Assembly: GCA_002104895.1 (NCBI GenBank)
Contig: MCFG01000581.1
Coordinates: forward strand, 1-27,060
DNA length: 27,060 bases
Direction of reading: 5' to 3'
DNA from: Anaeromyces robustus
Taxonomy: Eukaryota; Neocallimastigomycota; Neocallimastigomycetes; Neocallimastigales; Neocallimastigaceae
Below the pieces are notes generated by a model, which worked only from the letters and a program-made list of their open reading frames with translations, made no database searches and was not told the origin of the DNA. Below, in pieces: positions 10,961 through 27,060 of this stretch (within the stretch, counting starts at the first letter, position 1; the number at the start of each line of letters is the position of its first letter). A program made the translations under genes and the position numbers.

Positions 10961-12563
10961 ATTTAAATTAAATCATAATATTATTTATTTTTAATTGATT
11001 TTTATAATTATTTAATATTTATTAATTTATTTTATATATATATATATTTTAAAATAAGTTTCAATATTTCTTTTATATTATTGTTGATATTACAAAAAAT
11101 ATATATAAATATAATATATATATTTTTCATATTATTAGAAATATTTTTAAATTGTGAATTATATTTCTTACATTAATAAAAGTGTAATACAAATACATTT
11201 AAAAAATTTCTGTTTCTATTAATAATTATATTCTTTTTACTAATTATTTAATTAGTTAAAAAATTGACTAATCATTTTCAAATATTTTATATGGCTTTGC
11301 ATTTTAATTTAATTTTATTTAATTATTTTTTATTTTTTATTTATTTTTTCTTTTTTTTTCTTTTAAATTATATTTTCCTTAAAAAATATTTTTATTATTA
11401 GAATAAAAAAAAAAAACAAAACAAAGAACAAAAAATAATATAATATATATATAAATATAAGAAATATTATATATAATTAATAATTATTATAATTGTAACT
11501 TTTTTAAAAATATCAATATTGACAACATGAATAATTTAAATGAAGAAAAACCAAAACATCATACAATAATAAACCAAAATAGAAAGACAATTGTAAAATT
11601 TATGAAAAATAATGATATTATAAATATTAAAAAATTTATCTTTGAAAATAATATAAAATTAAAAAGTTTTAATGTTAATAATAAATTTGACTTTTTAATT
11701 TATGCAATTGGTAAAAATCTTTCTCCTAGTATGGTGAGATATTTCTATAAAAAATGCCATTATAAAACTATTAATTATAAATTTGTATTAAGAAGAAAAA
11801 ACATTTTAACACCACTTTTACTCGCGTTAATAAAATCGAATTATGTTTTAGCTGAAGAAATTCTAAAAAATGGAGGTGATATTAATTATAAAATGATAAA
11901 ATATAATATTTTATATTGTTTATATAATTATAAATCTTTAACTGCAAAAAATGTTAAATTTATATTAAATCATGGATTCAATATTGATTCAATCAATGAC
12001 CATAACTTAATATCAAAATTAAACATGGATATACTCCAGTTAATTTTAAAACGTTGTATTTTTGATAATGCTTTTATATTAAAATTAATAAATATTCATG
12101 TCAATAAACAAACTTTATCAGAAGAAGAACTTAATGATTTAATTTCTTCTGAAACAAATAAAATTAAAGTAACGGATGAATGGTATCAAAAAGCTTTGTC
12201 AAACAAAAGATATAAGGATATTGAAGAAGTTTACTACTATAAAGATATTAATTACAATAGACAAGAATTAAAGCAATTATTTTTCTATCTTGAAATGGAA
12301 TATGCTTATTTAAGAATTCCAGAACAATATAGACTTTTAAAACAAGTTGAAACTCAACAAATAAAAATTCCAATGACAAAAGATGATCTAGATGAACAAT
12401 ATAATAAACTTTATGTATTATTATTTAAATTTTTAAACTATTTTATTGGTTATGGAAAATTACGTGGATTAAGAGAATTTTTTAGAGAAAATGAATTTGT
12501 TTTTAAGGATATACGCTATACTGAATATGATATGATAACTTATGCAATTAAACATGATATTTC

Positions 12564-13135
12564 TGTAACGAACTTAGTGAGAAATTCACTAGGTTGTTGT
12601 AGTATTTCAATAATTAAAATAAAATAAACAAACAAAATAAATAACACAATATTAAAACATAATGTTTATGGATTTATTTTGTATTTTATTTAATATTTAA
12701 ATATTTAATATTTTTCTTATTAATAATGACTCAAAGAGTAAAAATAATATTAATACATTTCTTTTATATTCAAGACTTATTCTAAATCATTACGTGATTG
12801 GTTTACTTATTTAAATAACAAAATATTTAATTATTTAACTATTACTATAATTAAGTGAATACATAATTAGTATCTAAATAAAATCGTATTTATATCTAAG
12901 TGAACGAATAACTAATATCCAAATAAATCTAACTAAGTGAATGAATAATTATAGACTAAATAATTCTATTAATAAAATAAGTAAATGAACAAATGTATTA
13001 ATAACTAAATAAATGAATAATTTTCCAAATCAAAAAGGTAAAAGTAGGATTCGAACCAGTGATATCTATGATAAAGGTAGAAGTAGTTACCGTTGAGCCA
13101 CGAAGTTCCTTAATGTCGTTGTTGATACCGTTACA
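12564..13135 (-). repeat. 3' LTR of the 1.66-kb element
   Basis: Direct repeat of 13650-14221, 572 bp, with 7-bp inverted ends TGTAACG/CGTTACA. In element orientation it starts at 13135 with U3, which holds a tRNA-like module at its beginning. Confidence 0.9.
13036..13107 (-). other. tRNA-like module (Pol III A and B boxes) in LTR U3
   Basis: On the element strand TGGCTCAACGG (13100-13090) fits the A box and GGTTCGAATCC (13057-13047) is a perfect B box, 43 bases apart start to start. Runs of four and five T follow within about 20 bases, as in Pol III terminators. The arms pair poorly, so this is a tRNA-derived promoter-like segment rather than a working tRNA. Confidence 0.65.
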
Positions 13136-13137
13136 AT

Positions 13138-13147
13138 ACCCCCCTTC
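13138..13147 (-). other. polypurine tract of the 1.66-kb element
   Basis: On the element strand GAAGGGGGGT lies two bases before the 3' LTR start. A purine tract here is where plus-strand DNA synthesis starts in LTR elements, and it fixes the orientation as minus. Confidence 0.7.
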
Positions 13148-13639
13148 GAAGATCGGATTCCAGACGATCAATAGAATAGAAAACCTTGTCTAAAATGGAA
13201 ATCAGAATCTGTAAGTTGCGAATAACCGAAAACTATAACGAAAACTAAAGAAAACTAAGAAAAAAACAAAAATATTATTCACACTAAGAGCTGTCCAATG
13301 CAAGCGAGTTGTATGCTAAGAAGTAGTTTCCAAAATCTAAAAAAGGTAGTTTCTAGCGATTCAAGAGCGATATCAGAGAGTTTAATAGTCCAAAAAGTAG
13401 CTAACATCCTCCTCTTGATAGAAATGCACTTATTTTGATGACTTTTTCCTTAATTCTTGATGGATGAGTGCACTCAAAACCTTTAGGTCCAAAGCTCGAT
13501 GGATGCATTATCGTTCAGAAAAATTTTCATAATTATTGAAATTTCTAAATTTTAATATTAAATAATAAAATTAATAATGTTAACAATGGTTACGTTGACA
13601 AAGGGATACTACAACAAGGTAGTGAATGTTTTGCAACGG

Positions 13640-13649
13640 GAGTCATTAT
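13640..13649 (-). other. self-priming-type primer site of the 1.66-kb element
   Basis: Directly after the 5' LTR the element strand reads ATAATGACTC. It is perfectly complementary to GAGTCATTAT within the LTR (minus strand, 13818-13809), which lies 36 bases after a TATAAAAG (13854-13847). No complement to a tRNA 3' end (TGG...) is present at this place. Confidence 0.65.
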
Positions 13650-14221
13650 TGTAACGAACTTAGTGAGAAATTCACTAGGTTGTTGTAGTATTTCAATAAT
13701 TAAAATAAAATAAACAAACAAAATAAATAACACAATATTAAAACATAATGTTTATGGATTTATTTTGTATTTTATTTAATATTTAAATATTTAATATTTT
13801 TCTTATTAATAATGACTCAAAGAGTAAAAATAATATTAATACATTTCTTTTATATTCAAGACTTATTCTAAATCATTACGTGATTGGTTTACTTATTTAA
13901 ATAACAAAATATTTAATTATTTAACTATTACTATAATTAAGTGAATACATAATTAGTATCTAAATAAAATCGTATTTATATCTAAGTGAACGAATAACTA
14001 ATATCTAAATAAATCTAACTAAGTGAATGAATAATTATAGACTAAATAATTCTATTAATAAAATAAGTAAATGAACAAATGTATTAATAACTAAATAAAT
14101 GAATAATTTTCCAAATCAAAAAGGTAAAAGTAGGATTCGAACCAGTGATATCTATGATAAAGGTAGAAGTAGTTACCGTTGAGCCACGAAGTTCCTTAAT
14201 GTCGTTGTTGATACCGTTACA
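13650..14221 (-). repeat. 5' LTR of the 1.66-kb element
   Basis: 572-bp LTR almost identical to 12564-13135. It contains a TATA box on the minus strand at 13854-13847 and the proposed transcript start at about 13818. Confidence 0.9.
14122..14193 (-). other. tRNA-like module (Pol III A and B boxes) in LTR U3
   Basis: Second copy of the module at 13036-13107. The A box is at 14186-14176 and the B box at 14143-14133 on the element strand. Confidence 0.65.
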
Positions 14222-14360
14222 ATTTCAAATCATTGTATAAAAAGAATACTTACCTATTTCCCAGTAAGTGAAATAAAAGATCAATGGAGAGAAATTGCTA
14301 ACGAAAAAAAGAATCGTTCAGTTATAAAGATTATTCAAAAAACTTTAAAATACTAATATT

Positions 14361-14800
14361 AAAATTTTTTTTAAATAATGCTATAATAATAGCATTAAAT
14401 ATTTTCATTATACAATATTTTTTTATAAATATTATAATAATAGTATTAAATGTTTTCATTATATAATATTAAAATATAAATAATGTTATAATATTAGTAT
14501 TAAATATTTTCATTATACAATATTAAAATGTAAATAATGTTATAATATTAGTATTAAATATTTTCATTATACAATATTAAAATGTAAATAATGTTATAAT
14601 ATTAGTATTAAATATTTTCATTATACAATATTAAAATGTAAATAATGTTATAATATTAGTATTAAATATTTTCATTATACAATATTAAAATGTAAATATT
14701 GTTATAATATTAGTATTAAATATTTTCATTATACAATATTAAAATGTAAATAATGTTATAATATTAGTATTAAATATTTTCATTATACAATATTAAAATT
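14361..14800. repeat. tandem repeat, unit 54 bp, 7-8 copies
   Basis: Units contain AATGTTATAATATTAGTATT followed by AAATATTTTCATTATACAAT, with a step of 54 bases (for example AATGTAAATA at 14581 and 14635). The inner copies are nearly identical and the outer ones degenerate. The array begins five bases after the stop codon of the ankyrin-like gene, so it would lie in or just beyond its 3' untranslated region. Confidence 0.85.
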
Positions 14801-14960
14801 AAAATATAAATAAACATTTAATTAATTATTTATTTTAAATTATATATTTAAATATTTTTTTCTATATTAAAATATAAATAAACATTTAATTAATTATTTA
14901 TTTTAAATTATATATTTAAATATTTTTTTTCTATATTAAAATATAAATAAACATTTAATT
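14801..14960. repeat. tandem repeat, unit 68-69 bp, just over 2 copies
   Basis: AAAATATAAATAAACATTTA starts copies at 14801, 14869 and 14938, the last one partial. This array joins the 54-bp array directly and ends about 30 bp before the copia LTR. Confidence 0.8.
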
Positions 14961-14992
14961 TCAAAATTAATATATAAATATTTATTATTTTA

Positions 14993-15210
14993 TGTTAAGA
15001 TACTTTATTATATTTTATAATAATTTACTACATATTATCTTTCTTTTTTCAATCAAAAGAATAAATAGAGAATTTATTTCCTATTTATATTTAATAAAAG
15101 ATTAAATATTATTTCTATTGGTTGATACAATAATATTAAGGGGTTATTTATTTATATAAATAATATAAGTTAATTATGTTATGATAAACACAATAAATAT
15201 TATTCTGACA
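14993..15210 (-). repeat. candidate 3' LTR of the copia element
   Basis: On the element strand it starts TGTCAGAATAATATT directly after the purine tract, carries a TATAAATAGG at 15089-15080 and ends CTTAACA at 14993. About 218 bp. No second copy is in the window, so the inner end is well supported by the purine tract while the outer end is only a TG...CA guess. Confidence 0.5.
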
Positions 15211-15219
15211 TTCCTCCTT
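15211..15219 (-). other. polypurine tract of the copia element
   Basis: AAGGAGGAA on the element strand, touching the TGTCAG start of the 3' LTR, about 47 bases after the pol stop codon. Confidence 0.7.
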
Positions 15220-15265
15220 AAATTAATCTTTCTATAAGATTAATTTAATATTTTATTTGTTTATT

Positions 15266-16441
15266 TTAATGGTCAATTTTAGTTAGTATTGAATTTCTAA
15301 ATTTATCCATTAATGTGTTATCAAGATATTTGGTAAAACCATCAGCTAAATTATATTTTGATTTTATATATTTTAGTTTAATTTTCCTTTGGTTAATTAA
15401 TTCTCTTATATAGTGATAACGTATATCAATATGCTTTGTTTTAGGATTAATTGATTGATTTTCACTATTATAAATGGCTGCTTTATTGTCGACGTTAATT
15501 GTTAAGTAATTTAAGTTAAAATTTAGTTCATTTAAAAAATTCATATACCATACACTATGCTTCGCGCATTCACTCAAGCTATAATATTCAGCTTCTGCCG
15601 TAGACGTTGATACACAATGTTGAAGTTTTGAATACCAACTAGTGGGTGAACCACCTATCGATATTAGAAAACCTGAGGTGGACCTTCTAGTGACTGGATC
15701 CCCAGCATAGTCAGCATCTGTATATATTTCAATTGATGTGTTTTTTGTAAATTTGATTCCATAATTGGCGGTTGATTTTATATATCTGAAAATTTTTAAC
15801 ACACTTTCCCAATCTTCATAATTTGGATTGTTTGAATTCCTTGATGCTCTACTTACGGCAAAAAGAATATCCGGACGTGTACATATTGCAAAATATAATA
15901 GATTTCCAATAGCACTTCGATATTTTGTTTCATTAAATTTTATTTCTCTTAATTCTTTGTTTTCTACTGGCTTTAAATTCCTTGTTTGTCTATAATTGTC
16001 AATATTAAACTTATTTAAAATATCGTTAATATATCTTTTTTGATGTAATATATACCCACCTTTACATTTTTCAAATTTGATTCCAATTACGAAATCCACA
16101 TCCCCAATGTCTTTGATTTCAAATTTTTCTTTAATTAATCTTTTTGTATTGTTAATTTCTGATTCTGTTCCTGAAATTAATATATCATCGACGTATACAG
16201 ATAATATACATATTATGTCTTTATTTCTGTTTTCTTTTACGTATATACAGGGTTCACTAAAAAGTCGTCTGAAATTTATTTTAATTAGTTCTGCATTTAG
16301 TTTTTCATTCCATTGCTTACCAGCTTGTTTTAGCCCGTAAAGTGCCTTATTTAATTTCCAATAACATTTGTTGAACCCTGGATCACCTTCGGGTGCCTTC
16401 ATGTATATATTTTCATTCAATGGTGCATTTAAATAGGCGGC
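15266..16441 (-). CDS. Ty1/copia pol fragment: reverse transcriptase and RNase H
   Basis: The copia part of this frame begins at AAYLNAPLNENIYMK and shows the family series: LNKALYGLKQAGKQW, the catalytic YVDDIL, the DIGDVDFVIGIKFE block, GNLLYFAICTRPDILFAVS, then RNase H with YTDADYAGDP, STSGFLISIGG, STAEAEYYSLSE and the closing KHIDIRYHYIRELI and NLADGFTK. These are the RT and RNase H of a Ty1/copia polyprotein. An ATG-started reading of this frame extends to 16501, but its first ~19 residues are encoded by the neighbouring LTR and are not copia sequence. Fossil fragment. Confidence 0.9.
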   Translation of the reverse strand, partial: AAYLNAPLNENIYMKAPEGDPGFNKCYWKLNKALYGLKQAGKQWNEKLNAELIKINFRRLFSEPCIYVKENRNKDIICILSVYVDDILISGTESEINNTKRLIKEKFEIKDIGDVDFVIGIKFEKCKGGYILHQKRYINDILNKFNIDNYRQTRNLKPVENKELREIKFNETKYRSAIGNLLYFAICTRPDILFAVSRASRNSNNPNYEDWESVLKIFRYIKSTANYGIKFTKNTSIEIYTDADYAGDPVTRRSTSGFLISIGGSPTSWYSKLQHCVSTSTAEAEYYSLSECAKHSVWYMNFLNELNFNLNYLTINVDNKAAIYNSENQSINPKTKHIDIRYHYIRELINQRKIKLKYIKSKYNLADGFTKYLDNTLMDKFRNSILTKIDH

Positions 16442-17151
16442 TGTAAGGAACGGTAGTTCCAATATTACAATTGACACCAAAATCTGAAGTAACACAAACA
16501 AAATAAAATTTAAAATAAAAGATACTTATTGCAATATCAGAACACCTTTCCTTTGTTAACCTGAAAGGTCGGTGTCGAGATATATATATTAGTAAGATTT
16601 AGTTTTAAGTTTTATTTTATTTTATTTAAAATATGTTTTATTAGAATTTAGTTTTATTAATTATTAAAAATTAATAATAACTAATCTTTGTAGTATTTCA
16701 AACTACTTATGAATTAATTATTACTAATATATATAAAGTTATAAAAGAATAAAAGCACAAAGAAAAATATTTTAACTAAAAGTTTTACACCTATTTATAC
16801 TTTTTGCGGAAAAATAGTTTTAAAAATAAAAGTTCATAAAAAATAATAAAAATTGCTAGAAACTAAGATATTTTGTTATAAAATGAATCTCATAGAAAAA
16901 TAAAGAAATATTATATAATTTTTTCTTAAAGTTTCTAATTCTATTCCATGTAATTCTATAAAGAATACAGAAATAAAATACAGAAACAAATACAGAATAA
17001 AATACAGAAATTTATAATAAATAAATTTAAAATAAAATTTTTATAAAATTTGGAACAAGGTGTGAGTCGAACCCAGAGTGTTCGCCCAGATGGTCATAGT
17101 TACTAACCACTAGACCATGGTTACTATTTTACTAATTGAGGATTCGTTACA
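16442..17151 (-). repeat. 3' LTR of the 5.2-kb element
   Basis: About 710 bp, near-identical to 20971-21685 and, in reverse, to the solo LTR at 25442-26156. It abuts the copia pol fragment on its outer side. A four-fold ATACAGAA-type motif array lies in U3 at about 16974-17012. Confidence 0.92.
17052..17124 (-). other. tRNA-like module (Pol III A and B boxes) in LTR U3
   Basis: The element strand carries TGGTCTAGTGGTTAG, identical to the D-arm consensus of eukaryotic tRNA-Glu, and GGTTCGACTCA as B box, with starts 44 bases apart as in a real tRNA. A TTTT follows within about 5 bases of the 73-nt unit. The acceptor and anticodon stems pair badly. Confidence 0.7.
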
Positions 17152-17154
17152 TGG

Positions 17155-17163
17155 TCCTCCTTC
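17155..17163 (-). other. polypurine tract of the 5.2-kb element
   Basis: GAAGGAGGA on the element strand, three bases before the TGTAACG start of the 3' LTR. The spacing is close to that in the 1.66-kb element. Confidence 0.65.
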
Positions 17164-17729
17164 AGGATTCGGATACCAGACGAATCTTAAAACTAGGCTA
17201 AACTATACTAAGAAAATTTTAACTAAATTTTAAACTATACTAAACTATACTATATAGGTGTAAAAATAATATAATTTGATATTAATAAAAATACATGAAT
17301 ATAATAAATACATGAATATTAATAAAGTTTATATGATATTGATAATAATAATAAGGAAACTAAACTAAACTAAACTAAAGATTTTAAACTAATAATAATA
17401 CTAATTTGATAAAAAATATTGATTAAAATAAGGTTTTAATATTTTGAGATTCATTATTTAAGTTTTTTTCTTTTTCAATTTTGATTTGTTTTATACAAAA
17501 TAACAGGGTAAATTTTCAAGGTGGTTTATCTTCATAAGGGATGTATGCATCAACTTTAAAAATTCTTTAAATTTGTTGTTTTTGATTTTCTTTTGTATTT
17601 AATTGATTTTGAAATAAAAAATTTTGAATTTGATTTATTCTTATTATTCACAACTAACTTCTTGAAAAGATTGGAATATTGAGGTGTTTTTAAGTTTATT
17701 AAGAATTATTATTGTTGGACTTCTGTTCT
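17164..17729 (-). other. 3' untranslated part of the 5.2-kb element
   Basis: Between the gag-protease stop and the purine tract there is no open frame and no trace of reverse transcriptase or integrase. Short CTAAA/ACTATA-type repeats occur near 17195-17265 and 17355-17395. Confidence 0.6.
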
Positions 17730-19331
17730 TTACATTAAGCAAGAATTAAGATTGCCAGAGGAAACAGATTGATTACCAGATTTCAGATTATTACAAGAAT
17801 TATTATTAAAAGAATCGTTACTAAGATTAACAGAGTTACAAGGAGAATTACTAGAGTTAACAGGATTACAAGAATTTGTACTAAGATTAACAGGATTATT
17901 ACAAGAATTTTTTCTAGGAAGTACACAAGAGTTAGAAACATAAGTTGGTTTATTATTATTTTTCAAAGGTTGTGAATTAATTGATTTTGTACGTTCTGAG
18001 TGGAAACAAGAAGTATTACAAGAAGGTTTATTGCCAGAGTGATTATCAAGATTATTATTATTTTTAGAATGAGGTTTACAAGATTTATCAGATTTTGTAT
18101 TTTGAGAATTCGTCACGAATGAATTTGGGAGTATTAAACAATTTGAAAGACAGTAATTTGAATTGAAAGTTATTTCTTTAGTTGTAAAATTGATAGAGGG
18201 ATTGTGAGTTACGAGCCAATCTATTCCAAGAATACCACAATACGAAGGTAGATCCACAATATAGAATTCTGTTTTACAAAGGTGATTTTTATATTTCAAC
18301 GAGATGGGATAAGTTTTACCAAAAATTGTTTGATTTCCGGCTACTCCAGAAACGGCAGGAAAAGTGGAATCTGAGTCGAAAGGAATATTGTTTTCTTTAG
18401 CAAAGTGTATATCCATAAGATTTAATTGAGAACCTGAATCGATGAGTAGTTTAGCATTGCAAGAAGAGTTTAAAGTTTGTAGATTGAATTCGGCAACTGG
18501 AGCATTCAAAGATGGATCATCAGAAAGTCTAGGTCTTGATTTTGGTTTGGATTCTGGATTAGAAATAAAAGCATTGCTGGAAGAGGGTTTATTGTCATCT
18601 TCATTCACTTTATTCTTTAAAGGGCAATTATTAACTTGGTGATTTTTCAATCCATAGTAGAAACAAAGATGTTCTTTTCTTCTTCTTTCTTTTTCTTCAC
18701 GGGTTATTGTTTCATTAGATTTACTTGAGGAAAATTGAAACGAACTAGAATGGCGACCAGAGGAATGATTGCTTGAATTATTCGATTTAAAATATTGATT
18801 ATGAGTGGAGAGTTTTAAATCTATACGAGAAGCTATGGTTTGAAGAGAGAATAAGAATTGTGGCCCAGGAAACATTTCTAAGATTCTAGTTGCAATATTG
18901 TCGTTTAATCCTGCGAGAAAAGCATCCATTTTAGCAGCTTCATTCCAAGAAGAGTCATCTGCATATTTATTAAACTCCAGGATATAGCTTCTTACATCTC
19001 CTAGACGTCTCTGTTTAATGGTTCTGAGCTTTTGGTTTGCTATGAAGGTTGAATCATAATTTCCAAAGGTAGCTTTAAACTTGGATATAAACGCTTCATA
19101 GTCATCTAGGCATGGGTCCACATTTTCAATTAAAGTTGCGGCCCAATTCATTGCAGAACCGTAAAGTCTGGAAATGATGTATGCAACCTTAACTGGATCT
19201 TCAGAAAACTTTTCTGGTTGCAACATAAAGACAAGGTTCATTTTTGCAAGGAAGCCTTTAAAGAAACGACGGTCTCCAGCGAATCCATCTTTGTACATAA
19301 CGTTTGCATTGAGAAAGTTATCTTCGTTCAT
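17730..19331 (-). CDS. gag-protease protein of the 5.2-kb element
   Basis: 533-residue frame. The capsid-type gag domain covers about residues 10-165 (KVAYIISRLYGSAMNWA, DYEAFISKFKATFGNYD, RLGDVRSYILEFNKYAD, LNDNIATRILEMFPGPQ), matching the retrotransposon gag family of Ty3/gypsy elements. A Ser/Asn-rich linker, a basic segment and a zinc-knuckle-like segment follow at about 205-240. An aspartic protease domain lies around 275-390 with the active-site LLIDSGSQLNLMD and a later GILGIDWL. The last ~140 residues are a low-complexity tail rich in Asn, Ser, Cys and Pro, with repeated NSCN and NPVN-type phrases. No reverse transcriptase follows. The gag domain is about 80% identical by eye to that at 21686-22394. 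Confidence 0.85.
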   Translation of the reverse strand: MNEDNFLNANVMYKDGFAGDRRFFKGFLAKMNLVFMLQPEKFSEDPVKVAYIISRLYGSAMNWAATLIENVDPCLDDYEAFISKFKATFGNYDSTFIANQKLRTIKQRRLGDVRSYILEFNKYADDSSWNEAAKMDAFLAGLNDNIATRILEMFPGPQFLFSLQTIASRIDLKLSTHNQYFKSNNSSNHSSGRHSSSFQFSSSKSNETITREEKERRRKEHLCFYYGLKNHQVNNCPLKNKVNEDDNKPSSSNAFISNPESKPKSRPRLSDDPSLNAPVAEFNLQTLNSSCNAKLLIDSGSQLNLMDIHFAKENNIPFDSDSTFPAVSGVAGNQTIFGKTYPISLKYKNHLCKTEFYIVDLPSYCGILGIDWLVTHNPSINFTTKEITFNSNYCLSNCLILPNSFVTNSQNTKSDKSCKPHSKNNNNLDNHSGNKPSCNTSCFHSERTKSINSQPLKNNNKPTYVSNSCVLPRKNSCNNPVNLSTNSCNPVNSSNSPCNSVNLSNDSFNNNSCNNLKSGNQSVSSGNLNSCLM

Positions 19332-19446
19332 CTTTATTTGATTAATTTATTATTGGACTCGACTAGGAATTCAAATTGTTTATTAAGGTAAATTTAAATT
19401 TTAATTTCGCTTTTTATGCCTTACAACTCAAAAATAAACCGGCAAA

Positions 19447-19600
19447 AGCTACTAACTAGAGGTATATACTAGACCTCGAAATAAATATTAAAACTATATA
19501 ATTAAAGTCGCTTCACCTTCACGACCAACCTCCAGCCTTCGGTGACTGAAGTTCCTTATTTGCCAGAGCTTACGAAGGTATTGAACTTGAACGTCCGATA
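19447..19600 (-). ncRNA. conserved leader RNA block with hairpins (copy 1)
   Basis: Conserved with 22826-22985. On the element strand it holds CAGTC...GGCTG and GGTCG...CGACT hairpins and, at 19477-19459, the hairpin GAGGT-CTAGTATAT-ACCTC. The GGTCG stem is kept by a G-U pair here where the other copy has G-C. Role unknown; packaging, dimerisation or translation control are possible. Confidence 0.5.
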
Positions 19601-19738
19601 TTGCAGTGCTTTTTATCACACAACAATTCCTTCCCCCAAGAAAGCGTGCTTTTCACACTACCCACTTTTATCAATACCTAAGTAACTAATTGACTATAGT
19701 TTCTTAACCTACTAGAAACTAGTTACTTACGCCAAACA

Positions 19739-19780
19739 CTCTGTATATGAGCTCTAAACGCTCCTAGTATATTTTACAAA
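19739..19780 (-). ncRNA. conserved leader hairpin with sequence complementary to a later loop (copy 1)
   Basis: The element strand reads ATATACTAGGAGCG and then GAGCTCATATACAG, a GAGC...GCTC hairpin conserved at 23090-23130. Its ATATACTAG (19772-19764) is the exact complement of the CTAGTATAT loop at 19472-19464. Confidence 0.45.
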
Positions 19781-19861
19781 TAATTTACCTTAAAAATTAA
19801 ATAAATATTTGATTACACAGAAGTTTACAAAGATGTTTTTTTCTTTTAATAATTTTTTCTA

Positions 19862-19950
19862 TTTCACACTGCTGTTCTTTCAGTTTATCAACTTACTCGA
19901 GCTGAATGTAGGACTTACGTCTGAGCCTACCAGCGAGGGCCAATGTGAAA
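19862..19950 (-). ncRNA. structured leader RNA motif, copy A1 (89 nt)
   Basis: On the element strand TTTCACATTG at the start pairs with CAGTGTGAAA at the end. Inside are GTAGG...CCTAC, the invariant CCCTCGCTGGTAGG, and the invariant loop GTTGATAAA followed by CTGAA. The same motif occurs at 22596-22676 and 23195-23281 with compensatory changes in the closing stem. I do not recognise the family. Confidence 0.65.
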
Positions 19951-20043
19951 CTCGAAATTTTAATTATAAAAGAAAAGAAGGACAGTATAAAAATAAGGAT
20001 CCTCAGAATGATTCTCCTTATTAAAAATTTTATTAAATTTATA

Positions 20044-20080
<37 letters not shown>

Positions 20081-20134
20081 ATATAACAAAAATAAATTTT
20101 TTTTTTTTTTTTTTTTAAACTATATAACAAAAAT

Positions 20135-20175
<41 letters not shown>

Positions 20176-20959
20176 ACTAGAAAAAATTTTTTTGAAAAAT
20201 AATTTAATTTATCTATTCTATAATTTATTCATTCACTTATTTTTTTATATTAATTTATTTAATTTATTAATATTCATTCACTTAATTTAATTTATTTAAT
20301 TTTTTAATTTAATTTTATTAATTTTCCGAAAATATCACTGGCAAGGTAGTACAAAATCTTTTTCAAATGCTATGGGGTACACTATTTTTATCTTCGGGTA
20401 GTACAAGGAAAATTTTTCAAAATGTTACACAAGGAAAATTTTTTAACTATTCTAGGGTGGTACAAAATTTTCTATAACTAAGGTTTCTAAGTAATTCAAA
20501 GGTAATCCAAGGTAGAGTAGCTAAGACTAAGGAGAGAAACTAGGTTAAACTAAGGACGGGTGGAATCTGGGTGCTTTATTTTTTTACTTTATCAAGAAAA
20601 ATTTTTATTCGAGAAGGATACTTGATAGGATGGATACTAGAATTATTCAAGAAAAGTAGACAAAGGGTAAACAAGAAGTAGACAAGACTAAGACAAGACT
20701 AAAAACTAAGGATTATACAAGGTAGATAACTGGTAATCAAAAACTAGGATAGAAGTATTCAAGGGATTAGGAGATTATTACTAGAACAGGTAGTATCCAG
20801 AAGCTAAGAAAAAGTAGTATTCTAAGATTAGACTAAAAGAAGTAGTATCCAAAGGTAGTTCTAAAAGGCGGTAGAATCCAATAAAAGGTAGAAACTAAAA
20901 ATTGGTAGCAGATTCCAAAATTTTCGACACTAAGGTTCCAGGCGGTGTTTCTTTTGTTG

Positions 20960-20970
20960 GGTGCTTTTAT
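20960..20970 (-). other. self-priming-type primer site of the 5.2-kb element
   Basis: The element strand directly after the 5' LTR reads ATAAAAGCACC. It is the exact complement of GGTGCTTTTAT in the LTR (21291-21281), which begins 40 bases after TATAAATAGG (21331-21322). This is the geometry of Tf1-type elements, in which the transcript's own 5' end primes reverse transcription. Confidence 0.7.
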
Positions 20971-21685
20971 TGTAACGGAACGGTAGTTCCAATATTACAA
21001 TTGACACCAAAATCTGAAGTAAACACAAACAAAATAAAATTTAAAATAAAAGATACTTATTGCAATATCAGAACACCTTTCCTTTGTTAACCTGAAAGGT
21101 CGGTGTCGAGATATATATATTAGTAAGATTTAGTTTTAAGTTTTATTTTATTTTTATTTAAAATATGTTTTATTAGAATTTAGTTTTATTAATTATTAAA
21201 AATTAATAATAACTAATCTTTGTAGTATTTCAAACTACTTATGAATTAATTATTACTAATATATATAAAGTTATAAAAGAATAAAAGCACCAAGAAAAAT
21301 ATTTTAACTAAAAGTTTTACACCTATTTATACTTTTTGCGGAAAAATAGTTTTAAAAATAAAAGTTCATAAAAAATAATAAAAATTGCTAGAAACTAAGA
21401 TATTTTGTTATAAAATGAATCTCATAGAAAAATAAAGAAATATTATATAATTTTTTCTTAAAGTTTCTAATTTTATTCCATGTAATTCTATAAAGAAATA
21501 CAGAAATAAAATACAGAAACAAATACAGAATAAAATACAGAAATTTATAATAAATAAATTTAAAATAAAATTTTTATAAAATTTGGAACAAGGTGTGAGT
21601 CGAACCCAGAGTGTTCGCCCAGATGGTCATAGTTACTAACCACTAGACCATGGTTACTATTTTACTAATTGAGGGATTCGTTACA
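20971..21685 (-). repeat. 5' LTR of the 5.2-kb element
   Basis: 715 bp with TGTAACG/CGTTACA ends. It carries TATAAATAGG at 21331-21322 and the proposed transcript start at about 21291. On its outer side it directly interrupts a second gag frame. Confidence 0.92.
21585..21657 (-). other. tRNA-like module (Pol III A and B boxes) in LTR U3
   Basis: Copy of the 17052-17124 module. The A box TGGTCTAGTGG is at 21650-21640 and the B box GGTTCGACTCA at 21606-21596, 44 bases apart. A T-run follows. Confidence 0.7.
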
Positions 21686-22394
21686 CACAGTAAGCACAAA
21701 GGTTTTCTTTTCTTCTTCTTTCTTTTTCTTCGTTACTTAATGGTTCACGAAATCTGAAAGTTGATTGTTTTGTGTTAGAGAAGGGTTCCTTGCTTTTATT
21801 GGAATTATTATAATTTTTGCTGTTATTATTATTAAAACGACTTTGAGAGTTAAAAAATTGTCGATGGGTAGAGAGTCGACAATCGATTCTTGAAGCTATT
21901 GTTTGCATGGAGAAGAGAGATTGAGGACCAGGAAACATTTCCAATATTCGAGTAGCTATCTGATCGTTTAGGCCTGAGAGAAAAGCATCCATTTTAGCTT
22001 CCTCGTTCCAGGATGATTCGTCGGCGTATTTGTTGAATTCCATAATGTAGCTTCCGACGTCTCCTAAACGTTTTTGCCTGATCGTTTTAAGTTTTTGGTT
22101 TGCTATGAATGTGGAATCATAGCTTCCGAAGGTAGCTTTAATTTTGGATATGAAAGCGTCGTAGTCGTTGAGGCAAGGATCATTGTTTTCTATCAGGGTT
22201 GCGGCCCAGTTCATTGCTGAACCGTAGAGTCTGGATATAATGTAGGCAACCTTGATTGGATCTTCTTCGAACTTATCGGGCTGTAACATAAAAATAAGTT
22301 CCATTTTGGCTAGAAAACCTTTAAAGTAACGACGGTCTCCTGCAAATCCGTCTTTAAAAATTGGATTAATATTATTGAAGTTTTCTTCTTCCAT
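21686..22394 (-). CDS. gag of the older LTR element, 5' part
   Basis: Begins MEEENFNNINPIFKDGFAGD at 22394. The capsid-type gag domain (KVAYIISRLYGSAMNWA, DYDAFISKIKATFGSYD, RLGDVGSYIMEFNKYAD, LNDQIATRILEMFPGPQ) aligns from end to end with that at 17730-19331, about 80% identical by eye. It continues through an Asn-rich linker and a basic segment to the start of a zinc knuckle, where the neighbouring LTR cuts it off. Protease and anything beyond are not in the window. Confidence 0.85.
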
Positions 22395-22595
22395 TATGTA
22401 TTATTATTTTTGAATTTATATAAATATGTTAAGAATACGTTTTAAAGTTTTGATTATAAGTGTTCCCACAATAGTTAATTTTATAAAAGTGCTTTGAGTT
22501 TGCTTAGAGAGTTATAATTTATTGGATTAAATATTATAAATAAGCTTCTGAATTAATTGATATATAATTTTAAATATTTTTAAATACTTCTTTTC

Positions 22596-22676
22596 CGTAT
22601 TGCTGTTCATTCAGTTTATCAACCGAAGAGCTGAATGCAGGTCTTACATCTATGCCTACCAGCGAGGGTCAATACG
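22596..22676 (-). ncRNA. structured leader RNA motif, copy B (81 nt)
   Basis: On the element strand CGTATTG at the start pairs with CAATACG at the end, a different sequence from the other copies but still fully paired. The inner stem is GTAGG...CCTGC, where a G-U pair replaces an A-U pair of the other copies, and the TTCGGT-TGATAA-ACTGAA hairpin is present. It lies about 200 bases before gag. Confidence 0.65.
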
Positions 22677-22825
22677 TAGATAAGAAGTTGATTTAAAAAT
22701 AAGTGCTGAAGGAATATCAATTAAGACTTTCCTTATTTATAATAAGAGATTTCGAATTTTAAAGTCTTTGGGATAGTTTATAGGTAAATATTTTAATTTT
22801 TACTTCTTTTGCCTTACAACTATAG

Positions 22826-22985
22826 AAAAACCGGCAGAAGTTACTTAACAAGAGGTATATACTAGACCTCGAAATAAAATTAAAAACTATATATTTTAGG
22901 GTCGTTTTACCTTCGCGACCAACCTACAGCCTTCGGTGACTGGAGTTCCTTGTTCGCCAGAGTTGCTGCAGACCTAGAACCGTTT
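22826..22985 (-). ncRNA. conserved leader RNA block with hairpins (copy 2)
   Basis: Counterpart of 19447-19600. It has GGTCG...CGACC and CAGTC...GGCTG hairpins and, at 22870-22852, GAGGT-CTAGTATAT-ACCTC with an identical loop. Confidence 0.5.
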
Positions 22986-23089
22986 TCCTATATAAATAGA
23001 CTACGGTGACTGTCCTCTCGCTGGAGTTTTACCTAGTCTAGAACCAAATCTATTTGTCGAATGCAGCACTAAAGAAGACTAATCTCCTA

Positions 23090-23130
23090 ACTCTGTATAT
23101 GAGCTCTATACGCTCCTAGTATATTTTAAT
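23090..23130 (-). ncRNA. conserved leader hairpin with sequence complementary to a later loop (copy 2)
   Basis: Counterpart of 19739-19780. ATATACTAG (element strand, 23124-23116) is complementary to the loop at 22865-22857. The GAGC...GCTC stem is conserved. Confidence 0.45.
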
Positions 23131-23194
23131 AACACTTATTTACCTATAATAATAATAACGACTATAATATTTACTCTTTTTTATTATTCTTTGT

Positions 23195-23281
23195 TTCGCA
23201 CTGCTGTTCTTTCGGTTTATCAACCTACCGAAGCTGAATGTAGGACTTACGCCTCTGCCTACCAGCGAGGGCCAATGCGAA
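23195..23281 (-). ncRNA. structured leader RNA motif, copy A2 (87 nt)
   Basis: On the element strand TTCGCATTG at the start pairs with CAGTGCGAA at the end. GTAGG...CCTAC and TTCGGT...ACCGAA hairpins lie inside. Relative to copy A1 the closing stem changes A-U to G-C, keeping the pair. Confidence 0.65.
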
Positions 23282-23924
23282 TATAAGAAATTTTATAAAG
23301 AGTAAAAGGGACGATAAAAACAAGGATTATTATCTATAAATTCCTTGTTTTTAAAAGTTACACACAAAAATCTTTATTACACAAGGTTTTCTTGCTACTA
23401 TTTCAAGCAAGGAATTTATTAATTATTATTATTATTTTTTTTTTTTTTTTTTTTTTTTTACTTACTTGTAAAAATGTTCACTTAATTATTATATTAATTT
23501 ATTTAATTAATATTTATTTGTTCACTTATATATTTGATTTATTTAACCTTGGTTTTATTCACTTAGATTTCCTAATTGATTTATTTAGTTCTTAAATTTT
23601 GGTTCACTTAATTATGGATTTATTTAAATTATTATATTTTGTTCACTTATATAATTTATAGGGTTAGGTTATTTGTTTCTTGAATTGATTTTCAAAGGGT
23701 TATTTTCTTTAACGGATTGTTTTAAGTTATTTTATTTCTAAGATTGATCTGGTTTACTAAAATGGTATTTCCAAATGGATAGCTAATTTTTCTTTGATTT
23801 TAATATAAAAATTGGGGAGTAGCGACCTAACTAAGAAGTGGATTGTTTTCTAAAAAGGAAGGTGGCTTACTAATACAGGCGGTAGCTTACTTGCGGAGGT
23901 ATTGCTTGTTTTTCTAATTTAGTG

Positions 23925-23934
23925 GCGTTTTTAT
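23925..23934 (-). other. self-priming-type primer site of the older element
   Basis: The element strand directly after the 5' LTR reads ATAAAAACGC. It is the exact complement of GCGTTTTTAT in the same LTR (24157-24148), which begins 44 bases after TATAAATAC (24201-24193). Confidence 0.65.
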
Positions 23935-24327
23935 TGTAATGATAGAGTGGAGTTTATTAGCAACAGGCCCGCAAGCTTGAGTAACTCGAAATAATGGACA
24001 ACACGAAAGATCTAAGAAAGGTAAAAGACACAGTTAATTAAAAATATGTTTTATAATAAAATGTTTTATTAATTTTTATTAAATTTAAAATATAATAATT
24101 TATTAATTAGTTAGTGTAATATTTCGAATTACTTATTTAACTAGTTAATAAAAACGCGAAGAAAAAATATTTCTTTTGTCGAAATTTTACACGTATTTAT
24201 ACTTTTTACGGAAAAATAGTTTTCGTTTGTAAAAAGTATTAAAAGTTCTAGAAACTTAGATTTTTTGATTTAAAATGAATCTCGGATAAATAAAATTTAA
24301 AATAAAAAGAAAAACTAGAATCTTTTA

Positions 24328-24361
24328 GAATTTAATCGATAAGATTTTATCGATTAAATTC
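24328..24361. other. perfect 15-bp hairpin inside the older LTR
   Basis: GAATTTAATCGATAA, loop GATT, TTATCGATTAAATTC. It lies in U3 between the tRNA-like module and the TATA box. The 715-bp LTR family has no matching hairpin at this place. Confidence 0.75.
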
Positions 24362-24435
24362 GAGTAATTTCTACAACAAGGAAAAGTGTAGAAAATTTTG
24401 ATAATAAATTTTTAAAATAAAATTTTTCCAAAATT

Positions 24436-24507
24436 GGAAAGAGTGAGAGTCGAACCCGAGAGGTTCGGCCTGATGGTTCTAGTGTCTGACCACTAGACCA
24501 TGGTTAC
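24436..24507 (-). other. tRNA-like module (Pol III A and B boxes) in LTR U3
   Basis: The element strand has A box TGGTCTAGTGG and B box GGTTCGACTCT, tRNA-like spacing and a TTTT soon after. The middle part differs from the module of the 715-bp LTRs while both boxes are kept. Confidence 0.65.
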
Positions 24508-24529
24508 TATTTTACTAATTCTTGATACA

Positions 24530-25436
24530 ATATTCCCTTATATACACATTATTTCTAAACCCATATTTTTAAACCTTTTATCCCATATAAACTAACATTT
24601 AATAAAACTTCTTTATAATATTATTAATATCTTAAAACATAATAATTTTATCTATACTAAAAATTATTTTTATATTATCAATATTTTATTAATATCTTAA
24701 AATAAATTATAAATATTTTATTAATATCAAATAAATTTTATCAATACTTTATAATTAATATTATAATAAATTTTATCAATATTCTTATAATAAATAAATA
24801 TTATTAATATTTTATATTAAATAAATCCTATTAATATCTTATAATAAATTCTATATCTTTATTAATATTTTAAATAAATCTTATTAATATTTTATAATAA
24901 ACTTTATATATAATAAATAATATTTTAAATAATATTTTATCAATATCAAATATTTTATAACACTTTATTAATACATTTTATTTATATTCTTATAACAATA
25001 ATTATTAATATTTCTAATTCTAACCTTTAATAAATTTAATACTTCAATATAATTATAATAATAAATATTTATAATAATAAATATATAAATAATTATAATT
25101 AAATAATACTATCCACTCTTTTCCCTTTTTCCCTTATCCTTTCCCTCCAACTTAAAAACCCTGGACAAATACAGAAAATAAATATTCTGTATATTATTAA
25201 AATAAAATAAAATAAATAAAATAATAAAAATTAATTATAAAATAAATGAATTATTTATAAAATGTATAATACAGAAGTTAAATGTATTTCTGTATAAAAG
25301 TATAATATTTATTTTTAATTTTTATTTAAAACACTAAATAGATTAATAAAATATTTAATAATTAGAATAGAAAATATTAATAAATAATAATAACAATAAT
25401 AATTAATATTAAAATAAATCTTAGAAAATAATGTTT
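24530..25436. other. AT-rich intergenic DNA with degenerate repeats
   Basis: No gene seen. From about 24590 to 25020 the phrase TATTAATATCTTATAATAAA and variants recur loosely. A pyrimidine-rich tract lies at about 25110-25148. Inverted pairs of ATACAGAA and TTCTGTAT occur at about 25170-25190 and at 25269-25295, the second forming an 8-bp stem. Confidence 0.6.
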
Positions 25437-25441
25437 AGAAT

Positions 25442-26156
25442 TGTAACGAATCCCTCAATTAGTAAAATAGTAACCATGGTCTAGTGGTTAGTAACTATGA
25501 CCATCTGGGCGAACACTCTGGGTTCGACTCACACCTTGTTCCAAATTTTATAAAAATTTTATTTTAAATTTATTTATTATAAATTTCTGTATTTTATTCT
25601 GTATTTGTTTCTGTATTTTATCTCTGTATTTCTTTATAGAATTACATGGAATGAAATTAGAAACTTTAAGAAAAAATTATATAATATTTCTTTATTTTTC
25701 TATGAGATTCATTTTATAACAAAATATCTTAGTTTCTAGCAATTTTTATTATTTTTTATGAACTTTTATTTTTAAAACTATTTTTCCGCAAAAAGTATAA
25801 ATAGGTGTAAAACTTTTAGTTAAAATATTTTTCTTGGTGCTTTTATTCTTTTATAACTTTATATATATTAGTAATAATTAATTCATAAGTAGTTTGAAAT
25901 ACTACAAAGATTAGTTATTATTAATTTTTAATAATTAATAAAACTAAATTCTAATAAAACATATTTTAAATAAAAATAAAATAAAACTTAAAACTAAATC
26001 TTACTAATATATATATCTCGACACCGACCTTTCAGGTTAACAAAGGAAAGGTGTTCTGATATTGCAATAAGTATCTTTTATTTTAAATTTTATTTTGTTT
26101 GTGTTTACCTCAGATTTTGGTGTCAATTGTAATATTGGAACTACCGTTCCGTTACA
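25442..26156 (+). repeat. solo LTR of the 5.2-kb element family, plus orientation
   Basis: 715 bp, near-identical in reverse to the LTRs at 16442 and 20971. Ends TGTAACG/CGTTACA. It is bounded by a perfect 5-bp duplication AGAAT (25437-25441 and 26157-26161). A lone LTR with matching duplications is the usual product of recombination between the two LTRs of a once complete insertion. The TATAAATAGG is at about 25796-25805 and the proposed start about 40 bases later. Confidence 0.92.
25470..25542 (+). other. tRNA-like module (Pol III A and B boxes) in LTR U3
   Basis: Same 73-nt module as in the LTRs at 17052 and 21585, here on the plus strand. It has TGGTCTAGTGG and GGTTCGACTCA 44 bases apart, then TTTT within about 5 bases of the unit. 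Confidence 0.7.
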
Positions 26157-26161
26157 AGAAT

Positions 26162-26422
26162 AGAGAATTATATTATAAAATAATTAATAATAATTAGATT
26201 AATTAAATAAATAATAATAATAATAATAGTCGAAAGACTATAATAATAAAATTCATGTATTATAAAAGGAGGATAATTTTTCTTTCTTTTATAAAACGAT
26301 CAATAATTTGTATTTAAAAATAAGAATAATAAAAATAAAAGAAGAGTTAAACAAAAGATTATTTTATTTTTAATTTTATTGATTCATTAGTAATAATTAT
26401 TTAGTATATAAGTTAATTATAT
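26162..26422 (-). other. probable LINE 3' untranslated region
   Basis: Follows the stop codon of the LINE ORF2 on the minus strand. It is AT-rich, with a 6-bp stem ATAGTC-GAAA-GACTAT (26226-26241, + strand reading) beside an AAT-repeat run at about 26205-26228 that could be the LINE's simple-sequence tail. The LINE's exact 3' end and any target duplication are not clear. The solo LTR inserted just beyond. Confidence 0.4.
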
Positions 26423-27060
26423 TTATTGTTTATGAATATACATGTTTCCTGCATCATTCTGAGTTTCGTTACAGATATTATCATAAATATTATTAATGTA
26501 GTTATTATTAAAATTATTAGAAAAGTTGATATTATCAGAACTAACTAAAGGTTTTCGATTAACATACAAATAAATGGTTTCAAGATTGCCAAATAACTTA
26601 GAACGCCAATGATCGAATGTTGGGCATTCTAAAATCCAATGTTCGAAGGTTTGACTACCGCCTTTACAACAAGGACAGTAATCAGGGCAAGAGTCGGATA
26701 CAAGTTTAGCGGCTTTAGCAATTTCACTATTGAATTTATAACCACTACGTATTTTGAGGAGCCAATTAAAGCCATAAGCCAAGTTAGGGTATTCAAGTTC
26801 AAGATGTAAATAATCACGAGATAATTCAAGGTGATTATCACAATAGGTAACAGCTTTAACGGAGTCTTTTTTGACATCTCTATTCCAATAAAAAGTCAAG
26901 ATATCTTCTCTAGAGCCAATTTTAGAAAGTTTCTTTGATAAAGTTCTGCTTTCTTTAGCCCATGTGTATTTTCTCATCTTCGGAATAATAGTAACTAACT
27001 TGGAAATAATACAATTAGAGTCTGCCCATCTCTTAAAACATTTATCTTGAGCAATGGCAC
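26423..27060 (-). CDS. C-terminal end of a LINE (non-LTR retrotransposon) ORF2, partial
   Basis: The frame is open from the window edge at 27060 to the stop at 26423-26425, about 211 codons. The ATG at 26977 is internal, not a start. The hallmark is the CCHC zinc finger after the reverse transcriptase: CPCCKGGSQTFEHWILEC, that is C-x2-C-x8-H-x4-C, followed by PTFDHWRSKLF. Upstream, FNWLLKIRSGYKFNSEIAK is the helical segment that normally precedes this finger. The finger is thought to bind nucleic acid during target-primed reverse transcription. The Asn-rich tail after about residue 170 is typical drift in this genome. Reverse transcriptase and endonuclease would lie outside the window. No interruption is seen in the visible part. 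The clade (Tad-like or another) cannot be told from this part alone. Confidence 0.8.
   Translation of the reverse strand, partial: AIAQDKCFKRWADSNCIISKLVTIIPKMRKYTWAKESRTLSKKLSKIGSREDILTFYWNRDVKKDSVKAVTYCDNHLELSRDYLHLELEYPNLAYGFNWLLKIRSGYKFNSEIAKAAKLVSDSCPDYCPCCKGGSQTFEHWILECPTFDHWRSKLFGNLETIYLYVNRKPLVSSDNINFSNNFNNNYINNIYDNICNETQNDAGNMYIHKQ

Follow-up and report, generated by a model that had tools for sequence, protein, structure and literature searches.

Among long terminal repeat (LTR) retrotransposons, a well-described case of self-priming is Tf1 of S. pombe, in which the primer-binding site (PBS) behind the LTR is complementary to the 5' end of the element's own RNA, namely to its first 11 bases, according to the passages of PMC7175516 and PMC4600332 drawn on here. 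A second point of reference is Helenus (TRIMp3; Kojima 2024), elements with a tRNA-like stretch in their LTRs, for which the author considers it unlikely that autonomous partners would share long stretches of such LTRs (PMC10886601, in the passages used). Here we analyse a 27,060-nucleotide stretch of Anaeromyces robustus DNA (contig MCFG01000581.1 of assembly GCA_002104895.1, positions 1 to 27,060, forward strand; C536 in our numbering), hereafter the window, which comprises the whole contig and carries three related LTR elements, A, B and C, all on its minus strand. Comparison of these elements with their genomic copies and with four further families strongly supports self-priming of the A, B, C group, and it delineates both a second helix that brackets the PBS and a tRNA-like head with A and B boxes that opens each LTR.

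Primer, primer-binding site and bracketing helix

The elements, their LTRs and the two mutually complementary segments lie in the window as follows, distances being counted from the first base of TATAAA to the first base of the 10-mer.

12564-14221, minus strand: element A, 1658 bp, coding-less, with LTRs of 572 bp and a 5-bp target-site duplication (TSD), GAAAT
13650-14221, minus strand: 5' LTR of A
13809-13818, minus strand: primer segment of A, GAGTCATTAT, the predicted RNA 5' end, TATA+36 nt
13640-13649, minus strand: PBS of A, ATAATGACTC
12564-13135, minus strand: 3' LTR of A
16442-21685, minus strand: element B, gag-protease, non-autonomous
20971-21685, minus strand: 5' LTR of B
21281-21290, minus strand: primer segment of B, GTGCTTTTAT, TATA+41 nt, with an 11th base, G, at 21291 in the window copy
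20961-20970, minus strand: PBS of B, ATAAAAGCAC, whose base 11 is C at 20960
17730-19331, minus strand: gag-protease open reading frame (ORF) of B, 533 amino acids (aa), without reverse transcriptase (RT)
16442-17151, minus strand: 3' LTR of B
23935-24522, minus strand: main part of the 5' LTR of C, the first 17 bp being displaced to 26457-26473 by insertion X
24148-24157, minus strand: primer segment of C, GCGTTTTTAT, TATA+44 nt
23925-23934, minus strand: PBS of C, ATAAAAACGC
21681-22394, minus strand: gag of C, 237 aa, cut by B

A sequence-only reading of the window had described three LTR elements in which the bases that immediately follow the 5' LTR form the complement of a stretch inside that LTR, over 10-11 bases and 36-44 bases past a TATA box. 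The three segment pairs are indeed exact reverse complements at the coordinates it gave, and the measured distances of 36 (A), 41 (B) and 44 nt (C) agree with its range. Ten of the pairs hold throughout, and the 11th pair of B falls away as a family trait, as among 32 readable B copies it is present solely in the window's own, together with a near-identical solo LTR in the window. C turns out to be a disrupted rather than a clean element, its 5' LTR being split by a solo LTR of X and its gag interrupted by B.

To follow the two segments beyond the window, copies were collected by whole-genome searches (70.2 Mb) with the LTR-end/PBS regions of A, B and C, each of which scored the best 40 of 138-431 candidates; the loci taken were the top scorers, and decayed copies are therefore under-represented. 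LTR segment and PBS were located by their flanking sequence, so the choice of copies was independent of pairing. All 49 readable copies pair at 10/10 positions (A 8/8, B 32/32, C 9/9; loci L001-L068), and the 10-mer is invariant within each of the three families, so that the copies demonstrate conservation, with neither segment changing independently, rather than covariation. In dinucleotide-shuffled R-U5 sequence (with 50 nt upstream) such a 10-mer arose anywhere in 3-60 of 20000 shuffles per family, whereas the real one sits at one fixed place.

Variation in the segments is found between families. Relatives of the B gag (61-98% identity among the best 81 of 303 candidates, several with ORFs of about 1390-1430 aa) led to six 5' regions, two of which, L070 (family D) and L071 (family E), have a readable 5' LTR and a self-matching PBS; L069, L072, L073 and L074 show no readable 5' LTR with a self-matching PBS in gag orientation, L069 containing a B copy on the opposite strand. 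Five more 5' regions yielded self-matching PBSs in L077 (F), L079 (G) and L078 (H), and no readable LTR with a self-matching PBS in L080 or L081. H shares primer, PBS and neighbourhood with G, and the two are counted as one family. The resulting seven families possess six primers, each the reverse complement of its own PBS at 10/10 positions: GAGTCATTAT in A, GTGCTTTTAT in both B and E, GCGTTTTTAT in C, GCACTTTTAT in D, GCGATTTTAT in F and GAGTTTTTAT in G. D, E, F and G all pair 10/10, three of the four with new primer sequences, and from A to G the primer begins 36, 41, 44, 45, 43, 38 and 44 nt past TATA. When the PBS of one family is set against the LTR of another, 4-8 bases pair, except for B and E, which have a common primer and reach 10-11. 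All seven LTR types start with TGTAACG and end with TTACA, and the six PBSs all begin with ATAA, none with TGG. A genome-wide pattern consisting of the LTR end followed by ATAAAANNNNCC gave 72 matches versus 16 for the reversed control; by our count, 51 of the 72 belong to the B type, 7 to F and 6 to D, 1 is G-like, and 7 look like chance. The proposed check for covariation among copies has thus divided by level: within a family neither segment changes and 49 of 49 pair, and between families six different primers each match their own PBS.

Base 11 of the PBS is C in all seven families (13639, 20960 and 23924 in the window), and the cap G of the RNA might be paired there or copied in plus-strand synthesis. 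Across families the LTR base that precedes the primer is in most cases T or C. For A, 32 of 53 LTR pattern matches have T there and 21 have G, and among the readable copies 5/8 have T and 3/8 have G; the B 5' LTR and the solo B LTR of the window both have G. G in the 5' LTR is combined with T in the 3' LTR in the A copies L004 and L007 and in the B element of the window. We considered T-to-G changes at this base as traces of cap copying and leave the idea as speculative, the 5' G/3' T pattern fitting no simple scheme.

Furthermore, the PBS is bracketed by a second helix. A conserved ACC lies 29-35 nt past the PBS start (sought at 24-45 nt); two adjoining stretches, h2' (7 nt, the last of them its A) and h1' (the 8 nt that follow its CC), pair with a U5 stretch of the form h1-CC-h2, which ends 17-126 nt before the PBS. 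In the window the arms are:

13671-13687, minus strand: 5' arm of the A helix, h1-CC-h2
13610-13626, minus strand: 3' arm of the A helix, h2'-CC-h1'
21091-21107, minus strand: 5' arm of the B helix
20926-20942, minus strand: 3' arm of the B helix
23959-23975, minus strand: 5' arm of the C helix
23890-23906, minus strand: 3' arm of the C helix

The symmetric CC/CC loop is present in six of seven families, G having CT in place of CC, and pairing amounts to 15/15 in six families and 14/15 in B (104 of 105 in total). Dinucleotide shuffles of R-U5 reached the real helix score in none of 1000 cases in six families and in one of 1000 in B. Arms swapped between families pair at a mean of 9.8 of 15 positions, and a single one of the 5040 possible assignments of 3' to 5' arms, the true one, attains 104/105. 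The arm sequences differ between families, and because the arms, unlike the PBS, are not copied from the primer, their joint change would require selection on pairing. Judged by these comparisons, the second helix covaries across families, and its putative role is that of keeping the PBS in place.

The tRNA-like LTR head, element X and the rest of the window

Each of the seven LTR types opens with an A box and a B box of the RNA polymerase III (pol III) type within its first 84-93 bp (the head as cut here), 43-44 nt apart in 7/7 families, as in tRNA genes, and with TTTT 3-24 nt past the B box. Some boxes depart by 1-2 bases from the consensus, as do both boxes of G. The heads of the window are:

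14133-14186, minus strand: head of A, with A box TGGCTCAACGG at 14176-14186 and B box GGTTCGAATCC at 14133-14143, 43 nt apart
21597-21650, minus strand: head of B, with A box at 21640-21650 and B box starting at 21606 (minus), 44 nt apart
24447-24500, minus strand: head of C, with A box at 24490-24500 and B box starting at 24456 (minus)

The head pattern of the B-G type has 318 exact matches in the genome and none in the reversed control. In pairwise comparisons among families B-G, identity amounts to 68-96% in the head and 40-89% in the rest of U3; 14 of 15 family pairs have the better conserved head, with a tie in B-D (0.89 for both), and in all 15 the head also surpasses the region between TATA and the LTR end. 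Heads together with self-matching PBSs also precede intact gag-pol-chromodomain frames on contigs C193 (L040) and C56 (L071).

The heads are also insertion sites of another element, X, which precedes the C LTR of the window and two A copies.

24523-26456, minus strand: solo LTR of X in the head of the C LTR, 22 bp upstream of the C A box, TSD AGAA
25442-26156: solo B LTR, inside the solo LTR of X

X measures about 1.2 kb, starts with TGATGCAGG and ends with TTGTATCA. Among 13 sites checked at both edges, six have a 4-bp TSD, to which the window site adds AGAA; four have the start and no TSD, three of them with one common 5' flank and therefore probably 3' LTRs of whole copies; and three lack the start in the 43 bases examined. 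Its TG start, CA end and 4-bp TSDs identify X as an LTR, and the same features rule out a long interspersed nuclear element (LINE), suggested by an adjoining 184-aa ORF that merely runs through the junction. That ORF (26423-26977, minus strand) ends in C-x-x-C...H...C, by eye resembles the C-terminus of a LINE ORF2 interrupted by C, and has two relatives at 52% and no Pfam match. No coding region of X was recognised upstream of four copies (L119, L134, L135, L136), where the ORFs were host genes by eye, one unassigned 162-aa ORF, or none.

A genome search with the X 3' end, limited to the best 40 of 201 candidates, listed 44 matches, of which 40 are full ends and four weak partial ones were dropped. 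Behind the 40 ends lies a tRNA gene (ARAGORN) in 13 cases and an LTR head of A, B, C or D in 10. X lies 20-24 bp away from the A box in 12 of the 13 tRNA genes (28 in the remaining one; one of the 12 has a second candidate A box at 12 bp) and equally 20-24 bp in 9 of the 10 LTR heads (32 in the remaining one; one of the nine is a broken head matched by part of the A box). X behaves like a tRNA-gene-targeting LTR element, and the pattern of its insertions suggests that pol III factors are present on both tRNA genes and LTR heads. The heads are likely assembly sites of these factors, because X inserts there as it does at tRNA genes; compare Dictyostelium TRE5-A, which also integrates at non-tRNA loci with A and B boxes, proposed to be sites of pol III complexes (PMC5391098, in the passage used). 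Two repeated non-tRNA sequences recur behind X, one at L084, L116, L100 and L103, which may be another pol III gene, and one at L092, L097, L099, L104 and L107.

We would put at even chances a reading with two promoters in one LTR, in which an RNA polymerase II (pol II) TATA start makes the element's own primer and a tRNA-derived pol III head assembles TFIIIC/TFIIIB, the head being kept for a purpose of the element itself, such as keeping chromatin open, forming a boundary or yielding a short RNA of about 100 nt, and the resulting hundreds of decoy tRNA genes, which attract the tRNA-targeting element, arising as a side effect. A more doubtful proposal is that the head is kept as a U3 RNA hairpin or packaging signal rather than as a pol III promoter, X being attracted otherwise. 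The heads of B-G allow a hairpin to be drawn in which a T-A to C-G change between C and D is compensated (by eye), and the heads escape the tRNA covariance model; yet A has no such hairpin by eye and nevertheless keeps both boxes 43 nt apart, and X stands at nearly equal distances from the A box, 20-24 bp, in 9/10 LTR heads and 12/13 tRNA genes.

As for the remainder of the window, A holds no ORF of its own reaching 120 aa; an ORF at 11527-12627 shares 64 bp with its 3' LTR, and an array of 54-bp tandem repeats occupies 14374-14913, upstream of its 5' LTR. One A copy (L008, contig C30) has flanks and a TSD, GAAAT, identical to those of the window copy (12500-14260), and the region is therefore either duplicated or represented by a second haplotype. 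Over 715 positions, the two LTRs of B show 7 differences. B lacks a matching TSD (TTACTGTG / GCCGCCTA at 16442 and 21685) and no remainder of C was seen beyond its other side, so that the B/C junction looks rearranged. A Ty1/copia RT fragment (RVT_2; 15266-16501, minus strand) overlaps the end of the B 3' LTR, and a sugar transporter ORF lies at 2259-3833 on the plus strand.

Proposed mechanism and alternative primers

We regard as highly probable a model in which these Ty3/gypsy chromodomain elements self-prime, the second helix holds the PBS and pol III factors bind the LTR head. Transcription by pol II would begin close to the first G of the segment that lies 36-45 nt past TATA, and the first 10 nt of the RNA, whose pairing is seen in the sequence, would fold back onto the PBS directly behind the LTR, where the helix between U5 and the leader behind the PBS would hold the site in place. 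RNase H would then cut after nucleotide 10 or 11, by analogy with Tf1, and the freed 3' end would prime minus-strand DNA. The non-autonomous A, with no coding capacity, and B, with gag-protease, retain both signals and would borrow the enzymes of autonomous relatives. Apart from the pol II start, the A and B boxes of the head would bind pol III factors, as the insertions of X suggest. The self-priming put forward in the sequence-only reading is supported, within the reach of such comparisons, by six primers each matching its own PBS, by 49 of 49 copies and by the covarying bracketing helix.

Several observations weigh against the model. The case for self-priming is built from sequence comparison; the counted copies were among the best-scoring ones; and, given the invariance within families, covariation would depend on six sequences from related families. 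Unconstrained free-energy folding of families A-E gave the primer-PBS pairing a high probability in B alone and 0.01-0.34 in A, C, D and E; the pairing is therefore supported by comparison, not by single-sequence folding, and we set minimum-free-energy folding aside as a weak test of priming. In B and F a second ACC, likewise set aside, pairs at chance level (705 and 998 of 1000 shuffles). Neither ARAGORN nor Rfam identifies the LTR heads as tRNA, so that the boxes and their spacing are what is kept. No called tRNA or LTR head stands behind 17 of the 40 X ends; among these 17, a B-box-like motif stands at a comparable distance in L084 and L116, five share one repeat, and L105 is X beside X. 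Thirteen of the 17 (including L084, L092, L100, L103 and L116) were scanned against Rfam with none above the cut-off, L086 giving two matches below it, to the plastid psbA 3' untranslated region (E 0.016 and 0.15). Finally, the 27 tRNA-containing stretches of this genome against which the primer 10-mers were compared, on both strands, do not cover all isoacceptors, and the primer 3' ends find exact runs of 7-8 nt in these stretches or their flanks.

The comparison with tRNAs bears on the possibility that a host tRNA pairs with the PBS through one of its internal parts, the match to the LTR being incidental. Such half-tRNA or anticodon-loop priming has been proposed for most fungal Helenus elements, whose PBSs mostly match anticodon loops (PMC10886601, in the passages used), and the T-rich primer 3' ends with their 7-8 nt runs would suit it. 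No 10/10 match to a primer occurs in the 27 stretches, however, where the best reach 8-9/10 and the sole 9/10 match consists of the last two tRNA bases plus a T-run trailer; with six distinct PBSs, each fully complementary to a segment of its own LTR at comparable spacing from TATA, we consider internal tRNA priming very improbable. Scarcely any weight can be given to a mere repeat or protein-binding inverted repeat (an integrase or gag site, for example) with no priming role, which would accord with a pairing known from sequence and with the ATAA start common to the six PBSs, since in 7/7 families the segments lie exactly at the LTR/internal junction and at TATA+36-45, both are replaced in step in six variants, and the bracketing helix spans the PBS.

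Coding relatives and comparison with known systems

A and B themselves lack pol, and C and its relatives encode gag or gag-pol. B codes for gag and protease, and its other copies, at identities of at least 91%, have open frames of at most 692 aa, too short for pol. Intact frames are found in a C element on contig C193 (1391 aa) and an E element on contig C56 (1432 aa), both with gag, protease, RT, RNase H, integrase, SH3_Tf2-1 and chromodomain (ORFs L075 and L076). Among pol matches named by organism, the closest are Orpsp1_1, which we take to be an Orpinomyces-type gut fungus, at 76%, and a sequence labelled as a bacterial metagenome-assembled genome at 63%; those at 50-55% comprise proteins of fish and amphibians and a single one from Rhizoctonia that is named Tf2, as a matter of similarity only. 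No relatives were confirmed in viral_contigs. On this sequence evidence the intact relatives would belong to the same broad group as Tf1/sushi.

Seven families in one genome, in which primer and PBS changed in step and a second helix did so without copying from the primer, make the architecture of a self-priming RNA testable by comparison alone. The insertions of X, in turn, serve as a natural probe and indicate that LTR heads are handled in the cell much as tRNA genes are. This is relevant to the counting of tRNA genes, to pol III occupancy and to the way in which a mobile element can turn into a target for a different one.

The comparisons that follow draw on passages of the papers named. 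X resembles Ty3, DGLT-A and TRE5-A in inserting a short distance upstream of tRNA genes, and differs in its LTR of about 1.2 kb and its 4-bp TSDs, being known here from the LTR alone. A U5-IR-like RNA structure is reportedly required by Tf1 (so the title of Lin and Levin 1998), and the covarying helix described here may parallel it, a likeness drawn from that title only. With Helenus, the present elements share a tRNA-like LTR stretch with A and B boxes, and the fungal members of that group likewise have 5-bp TSDs and many families per genome (PMC10886601). Unlike them, Helenus elements are 311-1263 bp long, non-coding and described as tRNA-primed (PMC10886601), whereas A is a coding-less element of 1658 bp, B, C and their relatives are coding, TATA lies downstream of the head and the PBS is self-matching. 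Moreover, the same head is carried here by intact gag-pol elements, which contradicts the expectation published in PMC10886601 for autonomous partners; the literature searched, mostly outside subscription papers, listed no autonomous self-primed case with such LTRs.

Like Tf1 and the sushi elements, including Tj1 of S. japonicus, these families have a PBS directly behind the LTR that is complementary to a segment of the same LTR, and a Ty3/gypsy gag-pol, here with chromodomain frames. In contrast to Tf1 and Tj1, the primer sequences differ between families of one genome, and six of the seven families have a helix whose CC/CC loop is symmetric; where Tf1 uses 11 bases, 31 of 32 B copies pair over 10 nt. 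Pol III A and B boxes open the LTRs here and go unmentioned for Tf1 and Tj1 in the passages of PMC7175516 and PMC4600332 used. The combination of self-priming with pol III-type LTR heads looks new. We therefore place the self-priming described here among new members of the known Tf1/sushi mechanism; what is novel is the covarying bracketing helix and the presence of a pol III-type head in elements that are autonomous and self-primed.

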